DNA of 47,844 bases, taken from assembly GCA_009702455.1 (NCBI GenBank), contig WLIA01000007.1:1-47844 (forward strand), written 5' to 3'. The notes beneath the pieces are model-generated. The model was not told where the DNA came from and did not search any database. It saw only the letters and a list, made by a program, of their open reading frames with translations. How positions within the stretch are numbered: the first letter of the stretch is position 1; every line of letters starts with the position of its first letter. The DNA is from Actinomycetota bacterium (GTDB lineage Bacteria; Actinomycetota; Actinomycetes; Actinomycetales; Microbacteriaceae). Positions 13,846 to 45,019 of this stretch are shown one piece after another. Both the position numbers and the translations under genes were made by a program.

Positions 13846-15182
13846 TGAGCGAAAGCATGTTTGAGGGTCTGGCACCACTTGCCGCTCGCATGCGACCAAC
13901 GAATCTGAGCGAGATTGTCGGTCAGGAGCACATCCTTCGCAAAGGGTCGCCGCTCTATCAGCTAGCTCAGCCAGAAGACCAACGCAGTTTTGCCAGTTCT
14001 ACAAGCGTTGTGCTCTGGGGTCCGCCTGGCACCGGAAAAACCACTCTTGCTAAGGTCATCGCGCTCACCAGTCAGAGACAGTTTGCAGAACTCAGCGCGG
14101 TTACCAGCGGCGTTAAGGATGTTCGCGAAGCTATCGATCGCGCCAGGCAAGACCGGGAGTCATTTGGCGTAAGCACGATTCTGTTTCTAGACGAGATTCA
14201 TCGCTTCTCGAAAGCGCAGCAGGATGTCTTACTGCCTGCCGTTGAAGCCGGCTGGGTTGTGCTAATAGCGGCCACCACTGAAAATCCGAGCTTCTCTGTG
14301 ATAAGCCCACTTCTATCTAGGTCTTTGTTGCTAACTCTCAACCCGATATCCGATGAGGATCTGCAGACTCTGATTCAGCGAGCCGCAGATGACCCGAGAG
14401 GGCTCAAGGGGCGAGTCAGCTTGGATGATGAGGTTAGAGCTCAAATTTCGGCATTGGCTGGGGGAGACGCAAGGAAGGCCTTGACTATTCTCGAGGCAGC
14501 TGCTCAGGCAGTCTTAGCCGGCTCAGAGTCGGGCAAGGCCCTAATTACCCTGCACGACGTTGAGGCCTCGATTGATCGAGCCTTGGTGCGATACGACGCT
14601 AATGGTGATCAGCATTACGACGTGATCAGCGCCTTTATTAAGTCGGTTCGAGGCAGCGATGTCGACGCGGCCTTGCACTACCTCGCGAGAATGGTCGAGG
14701 CCGGCGAAGACCCTAGGTTCATCGCTCGAAGGCTAATTATCTTGGCAGCCGAAGATGTTGGTCTAGCCGATCCGAGCGCACTTACCCTGGCCACGGCTGC
14801 GGCAGATGCGGTTGCAAAAATCGGAATGCCCGAAGGACGCATCCCGCTTGCTGAAGTCACGATTTATCTTGCTCTCGCGCCCAAATCGAACTCCGCGTAT
14901 TTGGCTATCAATCAGGCAATCGAAGACGTTCGCGCCGGCAAGACGGGCCAGATACCGCTTTCGCTGCGAAGTTCCAACTATCCAGGCGCGATTAAGACCA
15001 CGGGAGCAGGGGTCGGCTACCGATATCCGCATGACGATAAGCGTTCGGTGGTCGAACAGCAGTATCTCGAAGGCAAAGTGGCTGACACCAGCTACTTTCA
15101 GCCCAAAGACCTGGGTGCCGAAAAGGAACTTGGTGAACGCTGGGCACGCCTCAGAAGCATCATCAGGGCGTTTAGAAAGTAG
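13845..15182 (+). CDS. rarA: Replication-associated recombination protein A (RarA/MgsA)
   Basis: RarA is a clamp-loader-like AAA+ ATPase acting at stalled replication forks. The 445-residue protein has Walker A GPPGTGKTTLA (about 64-74), Walker B LFLDEIHRF, sensor 1 ATTENPSF and the arginine finger LLSRS. The MgsA C-terminal tetramerisation domain follows, with SAFIKSVRGSDVDAALHYLARM and RSSNYPGAIKTTG. The ATG at 13845 follows a -10-like TAATCT by 6 nt with no clear Shine-Dalgarno. The neighbour on the other strand is the cyclophilin gene; downstream is the rpsD leader. Confidence 0.95.
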   Translation: MSESMFEGLAPLAARMRPTNLSEIVGQEHILRKGSPLYQLAQPEDQRSFASSTSVVLWGPPGTGKTTLAKVIALTSQRQFAELSAVTSGVKDVREAIDRARQDRESFGVSTILFLDEIHRFSKAQQDVLLPAVEAGWVVLIAATTENPSFSVISPLLSRSLLLTLNPISDEDLQTLIQRAADDPRGLKGRVSLDDEVRAQISALAGGDARKALTILEAAAQAVLAGSESGKALITLHDVEASIDRALVRYDANGDQHYDVISAFIKSVRGSDVDAALHYLARMVEAGEDPRFIARRLIILAAEDVGLADPSALTLATAAADAVAKIGMPEGRIPLAEVTIYLALAPKSNSAYLAINQAIEDVRAGKTGQIPLSLRSSNYPGAIKTTGAGVGYRYPHDDKRSVVEQQYLEGKVADTSYFQPKDLGAEKELGERWARLRSIIRAFRK

Positions 15183-15216
15183 CGCTAAACCCTATCTTTG
15201 GGCCTGGATACCTTGC

Positions 15217-15377
15217 TAAACTTGCGAGGTTGCCGACTAGAGCAAATTCGTGGCTGCGAATTACTCACACGGTGCGATTTGTCTAATAGCCAGACGAATC
15301 CGTGGCAAAAGGTTCGACCTCTCGATCCGCTTTTGTGAACAAAATAAACGCTATTGAGCTTCGGCTCACTGAAAGGA
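15217..15377 (+). promoter_or_regulatory. Structured rpsD 5' leader, candidate S4 autoregulatory RNA
   Basis: A -10-like TAAACT (15217-15222) would start a leader of about 150 nt. TTGCCG (15230-15235) can pair with TGGCAA (15303-15308) to close a three-way junction. It encloses hairpin AATTCG/CGAATT (15245-15262, 6-nt loop) and a 9-bp hairpin with one G-U (15276-15284 with 15292-15300, 7-nt loop). Downstream come AGGT/ACCT (15310-15320), TTTTG/CAAAA (15331-15344) and TGAGC-TTCG-GCTCA (15355-15368), which has a UUCG tetraloop and sits 2 nt before the Shine-Dalgarno GAAAGGA (15371-15377). Ribosomal protein S4 represses its own mRNA in several bacteria; control here is inference. Confidence 0.5.
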
Positions 15378-15381
15378 ACAC

Positions 15382-16011
15382 GTGTCAAAAACAACACGTA
15401 CTCGCAGCAAGACTCGTCTGTCTCGCGCACTCGGTATCCCGCTAACCCCAAAGGCAGCGAAGTACCTAGAAAAGCGTCCGTACGCTCCAGGTGAGCACGG
15501 TCGCACCAAGAAGAAGGCTGACAGCGACTTCGCCGTTCGTCTTCGCGAAAAGCAGCGTCTACGCGCTCAGTATGGAATTCGTGAAGCTCAGCTTCGCAAG
15601 ACTTTCCAAGAAGCGAAGCGCGCCGAAGGGCTTACCGGTGAAAACCTAGTTGAGCTTCTAGAGATGCGTCTTGACGCACTCTTGCTTCGCGCAGGTGTCG
15701 CCCGCACTATCGCTCAGTCTCGTCAGATGGTTGTGCACCGTCACATCCTCGTCAACGGACAGCGCGTCGATCGCCCATCTTTCCGCGTGAAGCCAGGCCA
15801 AATGATTCACGTTCACCCAAAGAGCGAACTAACTGAGCCTTTCCAGGTAGCAGCAGCCGGAGGACACGTTGATGTTCTTCCGCCTGTTCCTGGTTACATC
15901 GACGTTCAGCTAGACAAGTTGCAGGTGACCCTAGTTCGCCGTCCAAAGCGCGCAGAAGTTCCGGTTACTTGTGAAGTTCAGCTCGTTGTTGAGTACTACG
16001 CGGCTCGATAG
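15382..16011 (+). CDS. rpsD: 30S ribosomal protein S4
   Basis: S4 is a primary 16S rRNA-binding protein that nucleates assembly of the small subunit body. The 209-residue chain has normal length. It carries the basic N-terminal segment, RPYAPGEHGRTKKK, and the S4 RNA-binding domain near residues 98-160 (MRLDALLLRAGVARTIAQSRQMVVHRHILVNG). The GTG start has GAAAGGA 4 nt upstream. The gene stands alone rather than in the alpha operon with rpsM, rpsK and rpoA, so it needs its own control; its leader is strikingly structured. A 6-bp hairpin GATAGA/TCTATC (16007-16025) spans its stop codon. Confidence 0.98.
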   Translation: MSKTTRTRSKTRLSRALGIPLTPKAAKYLEKRPYAPGEHGRTKKKADSDFAVRLREKQRLRAQYGIREAQLRKTFQEAKRAEGLTGENLVELLEMRLDALLLRAGVARTIAQSRQMVVHRHILVNGQRVDRPSFRVKPGQMIHVHPKSELTEPFQVAAAGGHVDVLPPVPGYIDVQLDKLQVTLVRRPKRAEVPVTCEVQLVVEYYAAR

Positions 16012-44766: not shown

Positions 44767-44786
44767 AATTGGCTAGAAGAGAAAGG
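44764..44786 (+). promoter_or_regulatory. Candidate promoter and ribosome binding site for the HGxxPAAW-like gene
   Basis: TAGAAT (44764-44769) is a good -10; TTGACC (44738-44743) lies 20 nt upstream, rather far for a -35. GAAAGG (44781-44786) is a proper Shine-Dalgarno before the ATG at 44792. This could be an internal promoter of the trp cluster. Confidence 0.35.
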
Positions 44787-44791
44787 CTGAC

Positions 44792-45019
44792 ATGTCAGCA
44801 AACAACACAGATTTAGGTCACGGAGACTCGGTTGCGGCCTGGGTTACAGTTTCGGCAATCATGGTCGCCTCGGTTGCTGGCACGGCGGCTGTCTGGTTCG
44901 GTAGTGCCGCACTTGCTATAGCAGCAGTAGTTCTCACCCTAGGTGGCTTGGTTGCAGGCTTCTTGCTAAAGAAGGCCGGCTACGGCGTAGGTGGCAGTAA
45001 GAGCAAGAGCTCACACTAG
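44792..45019 (+). CDS. Small membrane protein of the HGxxPAAW family, variant motif
   Basis: A 75-residue protein with two probable spans (about 15-36 and 39-61) and a lysine/serine tail. In actinobacterial trp clusters a small HGxxPAAW protein sits directly before trpC. Here the motif reads HGDSVAAW, with valine for proline. The second family feature, a glycine-rich GYGVGG near the end of span 2, is present. Function unknown. Its stop codon shares a base with the trpC GTG. Confidence 0.75.
   Translation: MSANNTDLGHGDSVAAWVTVSAIMVASVAGTAAVWFGSAALAIAAVVLTLGGLVAGFLLKKAGYGVGGSKSKSSH

Follow-up and report, generated by a model that had tools for sequence, protein, structure and literature searches.

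A folded RNA ahead of rpsD, the gene of ribosomal protein S4, is conserved across most genera of the Microbacteriaceae. In the stretch of DNA analysed here (47,844 nucleotides in all, hereafter the window) it occupies the leader of a stand-alone rpsD gene, and we consider it probable that it is an S4 autoregulatory element, that is, a ribosomal protein leader of the rpsD mRNA, which would act at the level of translation. As is characteristic of the ribosomal protein leader class, a conserved and covarying structure lies in the 5′ UTR of a ribosomal protein gene, the placement in the 5′ UTR being deduced from a predicted promoter. That S4 would be both ligand and repressor is suggested by the gene association, by the generality of autoregulation among ribosomal proteins and by recurring loop motifs.

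Locus and promoter of rpsD

The host of the window is a Rhodoluna-like Microbacteriaceae MAG, and the nearest loci are those of freshwater Micrococcales, Rhodoluna and Microbacteriaceae MAGs. The rpsD gene (15382-16011, + strand) has a GTG start and encodes 209 amino acids; it follows a rarA-like gene ending at 15182 and precedes two small genes and then alaS, the genes being named from sequence resemblance. The gap ahead of rpsD measures 199 nt (15183-15381) and is, as the preliminary description of this DNA had noted, the longest internal non-coding stretch in the window; the longer uncovered interval at 44767-45018 holds a 75-aa ORF. This ORF (44792-45019, containing GHGDSVAAW) fills the sole longer gap between large ORFs and, standing ahead of a trpC-like ORF, is likely a real small gene. 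The location of rpsD outside the alpha operon, also noted earlier, agrees with the complete genome of a member of the same genus, which has rpsM-rpsK-rpoA-rplQ with no rpsD between; the gene order was taken from that genome, the assembly of the window itself having no contig with rpsK.

An extended -10 promoter box, TGCTAAACT, is predicted at 15214-15222 (+ strand), in the position that TGNTANNNT takes in relatives. In 76 of 81 leaders TGNTANNNT lies 34-43 nt ahead of GGCTG, with no other occurrence further upstream. From this conserved box we infer that the rpsD transcript probably starts at about 15228-15230, so that stem P1 (see below) would form the very 5′ end of the RNA. A consensus scan scored no sigma-70 -35/-10 pair, a result in keeping with a promoter of the extended -10 type. 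The predicted promoter is upstream of the whole element, hence the start would not be downstream of 15310. The leader had originally been taken to begin at 15217; this position falls within the -10 box, and the 5′ end of the RNA is very likely close to 15228.

Structure of the leader

All hairpins and pairings quoted in the preliminary description are present in the DNA at the positions given. The core of the leader is a three-way junction of P1 (15230-15234/15304-15308), P2 (15240-15266), P1b (15269-15271/15301-15303) and P3 (15276-15300), on the + strand like all features of the leader. The enclosing segments TTGCCG (15230-15235) and TGGCAA (15303-15308) do pair, the last pair being a G-U, and P1 itself joins TTGCC to GGCAA. 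The 6-bp hairpin, AATTCG at 15245-15250 with CGAATT at 15257-15262, lies within P2 and displays loop L2, TGGCTG, at 15251-15256. P1b joins ACG (of CACGG) to CGT, and the 9-bp hairpin, GATTTGTCT at 15276-15284 with AGACGAATC at 15292-15300, is P3, which closes the 7-nt loop L3, AATAGCC, at 15285-15291.

Downstream of the junction are hairpin P4 (15311-15328), which carries CCTCT in its loop and whose stem was assigned by inspection across the genus, and a small hairpin, TTTTGTGAACAAAA, at 15331-15344, recognised from sequence and alignment, of which TTGTGAACAA is kept among near relatives. P6, the TGAGC-TTCG-GCTCA hairpin at 15355-15368, adjoins the ribosome binding site, 2 nt separating its end from the Shine-Dalgarno sequence GAAAGGA (15371-15377), which is kept in relatives. 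P6 covaries among near relatives (12 sequences, arm swap 0/20000). The adjoining GCTATT at 15350-15355 is complementary to AATAGC of L3 (15285-15290) and is a candidate pseudoknot strand: among near relatives this GCTAT(T/A) is complementary to L3, and wherever the loop reads TATAGC the opposite strand reads GCTATA (Fisher p 0.005, the relatives not being independent), which suggests that the two strands pair as a pseudoknot. Around the rpsD start codon of the window (15378-15402), ACGTGT...ACACGT could also fold as a hairpin over GTG, and Aquiluna-type relatives have a similar TTGTC-AAA-GACAA at the TTG start of rpsD.

Covariation and distribution in the Microbacteriaceae

The folding energy of 15217-15381 is ordinary (z -1.32, 25 of 200 shuffles equally good), and reaches z -2.82 when the flanks are included (15183-15420). 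Since folding energy alone proves nothing, acceptance of the leader structure was based on comparative evidence, for which we retrieved 80 loci comprising rpsD together with the DNA ahead of it. From a plain MAFFT alignment RNAalifold recovered little of the structure; we therefore adopted anchors and arm-swap tests, in which 3′ arms are exchanged between sequences. When 20 Rhodoluna-type leaders were aligned over the 81-86 nt core, 90% of cells in the three-way junction pair, compared with 35-44% in slid controls, and the covariation score of the junction was reached by 0 of 500 shuffles. Compensatory changes occur in 13 of the 23 junction pairs among these near relatives, as would be expected of the folded leader first described from a single sequence; in this genus set they affect 7/8 pairs of P2 and 6/8 of P3, while P1 and P1b are nearly unvarying at this depth and P1 is invariant. 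The arm-swap test on the Rhodoluna-type set (n = 35) gave 0/20000 for both P2 and P3. A covariance model built from the 20 leaders (R1) had 46 matches on 79 loci, all directly upstream of rpsD, of which 26 were outside the training set, down to E 2e-7. The window's own genome has one good match to the element.

Upstream regions of rpsD collected from 60 Microbacteriaceae genomes revealed a layout common to most of them, consisting of an extended -10, GCC, P2 with GUGCGGCUGCG, a GGGA-type strand, P3, UCCC, GGC and AUCCCUCU, in which P3 closes a 7-nt loop with UAGCC at its end. Among 22 leaders of other genera, both partners change in 12 of 17 pairs, P1 now showing compensatory changes, and the covariation score is 0.362 versus 0.202 in shuffled sets, with 0/500 shuffles reaching it. 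Arm swaps in the family set (n = 46) gave 0/20000 for P2, P3 and P1 and 7/20000 for P1b, and the shifted control in the P1/P1b test was not significant; P1 and P1b thus have support in the family set. These arm-swap and shuffle statistics do not model the tree; the reciprocal model searches are independent of it.

Because a strictly filtered genome-wide scan with R1 matched few genomes outside the genus, a second model, R2, was built from other genera only, with zero Rhodoluna leaders in training. In a search of 300 kb, R2 recovers the window element in place (15229-15309, E 7e-4), and every one of its 39 matches there is upstream of rpsD. The cultured Cryobacterium tepidiphilum (L077), which is outside the training set, is matched at E 9e-21. 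At E ≤ 0.1, R2 matched 218 of 299 genomes across the family, in 66 of 78 genera; about 170 of the genomes match at 1e-5 or better. All 53 best matches whose position we compared with that of rpsD share its strand and precede it by 63-242 nt. The idea of a lineage-specific RNA thus gains a definite scope: the element is found at the level of the family and stands before rpsD in every case checked. Outside the Microbacteriaceae R2 had zero matches at 1e-5, and those it did have (best E 3.8e-4) were taken as noise. That an ordinary spacer between genes has produced these hairpins by chance, a reading with which the unremarkable folding energy of the leader alone (z -1.3) would agree, is refuted by the covariation, the held-out model matches and the fixed place before rpsD over dozens of genera, and we give it almost no credence.

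The element has been partly lost within the family: Aquiluna-type relatives have only a P2-like hairpin, some genera only a P3-like one, and several none. Six Microbacteriaceae loci without the element (L132, L139, L149, L160, L168 and L177) have in common an inverted repeat that immediately precedes rpsD and reads approximately ACGTCCGTGAG..CG(C/T)GA(C/A)AG..CGCG..CCACGT, which is possibly a replacement leader.

Control of rpsD

S4 is among the primary assembly proteins of the small ribosomal subunit. In the mechanism that we propose, transcription would start at about 15228; the first 80 nt fold, as covariation shows, into the three-way junction, two hairpins of which display the conserved loops (U/C)GGCUG and UAGCC. 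Surplus free S4, in excess over 16S rRNA, would bind the junction, and the bound state would stabilise the leader as far as the ribosome binding site and so hinder initiation at GTG 15382. In this genus the route would be the L3-GCUAU pseudoknot together with the hairpin at 15355-15368; in other genera it would be a long-range CCUCU stem, as there the CCTCT stretch pairs within the 25 nt that precede the Shine-Dalgarno sequence (family set, 1/20000). Pairing of CCTCT with the Shine-Dalgarno sequence itself was tested and was unsupported. The 3′ half of the leader, with the pseudoknot and P6, is present only in near relatives, so that the way in which binding would lead to repression, itself a guess, is not conserved.

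Many Gram-positive ribosomal protein leaders act by transcription attenuation, and a leader with several hairpins might likewise contain a terminator toggled by S4 binding or by translation status. We regard this as very unlikely here, since no hairpin followed by a U-run, and hence no intrinsic terminator, occurs on the + strand over 15183-15381 (a finding compatible with Rho-dependent termination), and the final hairpin adjoins the ribosome binding site instead. A leader without an intrinsic terminator points to control that is probably translational.

A more serious alternative, which we nevertheless hold to be unlikely, is that this is a real cis-regulatory RNA of rpsD that responds to some other effector (another ribosomal protein, 16S rRNA, a stress factor or a ribonuclease) or merely stabilises the 5′ end. 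Structure and gene association are established and would serve such an RNA equally, the ligand being a matter of deduction; the loop motifs are moreover reverse complements of both strands of the 16S helix-18 pseudoknot, a correspondence noticed afterwards that would fit pairing with rRNA. S4 is favoured over other effectors by the fact that rpsD is the sole gene found downstream of the element where this was checked, and by the tests in E. coli and Bacillus that confirmed S4 autoregulation (PMC7247131). The strict conservation of the loops and the family-wide retention of the element favour a specific ligand over a mere stabiliser.

Comparison with known S4 leaders

Autoregulation by S4 is proven in E. 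coli and B. subtilis (PMC7247131, PMC10931766). Eckert and Weinberg (2020) list S4 leaders for Gammaproteobacteria and Firmicutes and add new ones for Bacteroidia, Clostridia, Flavobacteria and Fusobacteriales, with none for Actinobacteria (PMC7247131). Searches with Rfam 15 gave zero matches in the window at gathering, none relevant in the leader at E up to 10, and zero at E up to 1 in the upstream regions of 20 relatives. As far as Rfam 15 includes it, the Firmicutes S4 leader had no model match in the window, the leader or the 20 relatives. It resembles our element in being, in B. subtilis, the structured 5′ UTR of a stand-alone rpsD with S4 as ligand, but its architecture is different, and its GUAA, which resembles the 16S site (PMC7247131), is absent here: there is no GTAA in 15228-15381 and none conserved in the relatives' alignments (A1 and A5). 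The E. coli alpha-operon site (Alpha_RBS), which also had no Rfam match, shares S4-linked control near the start site and the involvement of a pseudoknot; however, it precedes rpsM and overlaps the start, whereas in the window a stand-alone rpsD has a leader with a three-way junction as its core, at the 5′ end of the mRNA. The leaders of Bacteroidia, Clostridia, Flavobacteria and Fusobacteriales, where Rfam 15 includes them, gave no match; like ours they are lineage-specific and predicted by covariation (PMC7247131), but they belong to other phyla, other scaffolds and alpha-operon contexts. The leader of the window most likely works like an S4 leader, yet it matches no known S4 leader family tested. 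In the main text of a 2024 ncRNA survey rpsD goes unmentioned, and the open-access literature searched, supplements aside, contained no description of such an actinobacterial S4 leader. The element provides a covariation-supported candidate S4 leader in dozens of genera, cultured Cryobacterium included, and makes S4 autoregulation in Actinobacteria directly testable.

Loop motifs and other actinobacterial rpsD leaders

Loops L2 and L3 are nearly invariant, and the contact that they could make through GGCU and AGCC accordingly comes without compensatory changes. Each of the two loop motifs is the exact reverse complement of one strand of the 16S helix-18 pseudoknot; in the 16S rRNA of one genome of the same genus these complements each occur once in that sense, 16 nt apart. 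We noticed this afterwards and treat it as no more than a lead. In the established 16S structure the helix-18 strands pair together, so the candidate GGCU/AGCC contact would imitate that pseudoknot. We raise, as a tentative idea that is rather less likely than its negation, that in the actinobacterial S4 leader kissing GGCU/AGCC loops recreate the helix-18 (530) pseudoknot beside the S4 site, and that the motifs were redistributed over other scaffolds in other Micrococcales families; if true, the redistributed motifs would be a natural series of solutions to S4-RNA recognition. The same short motifs, GCGGCUGC or UUAGCC, do occur before rpsD in other Micrococcales families, in different scaffolds, a recurrence expected if one protein recognises the motifs. 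Families of the order appear to use different rpsD leaders with common loop motifs, which should help the study of how one protein recognises changing RNAs.

Among these other Micrococcales, one type of rpsD leader consists of GGTTG, a hairpin, and CTGGG(G/A)YC with (T/C)TAGCC or a variant, partnered by GG(C/T)CCC, often with ACGACAGGA before the start (loci L185, L186, L189, L192, L193, L275, L276, L279, L280, L283, L291 and L293-L297). It is probably a second class of S4 leader. In two further families the rpsD leader has short hairpins, one displaying GCGGCUGC on a GAAUCC...GGAUUC stem (L190, L289, L290, L292 and L298), the other GGUUGGCUGCUG on a UCGCGG...CCGCGA stem (L191, L281, L282 and L285). 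Lastly, using for each genome the rpsD closest to the S4 of the window, we observed a palindrome resembling an iron box, TTAGGTTAGSCTAACCTAA (14 or more of 19 positions), just upstream of the rpsD start in 18 of 24 genomes outside the Micrococcales and in a few Micrococcales (loci L195 and L198-L221, from other Actinomycetes families). It occurs in 0 of 60 Microbacteriaceae and in 2 of 1200 shuffles, and its sequence suggests DtxR/IdeR-type metal control of the S4 gene in those other Actinomycetes families.
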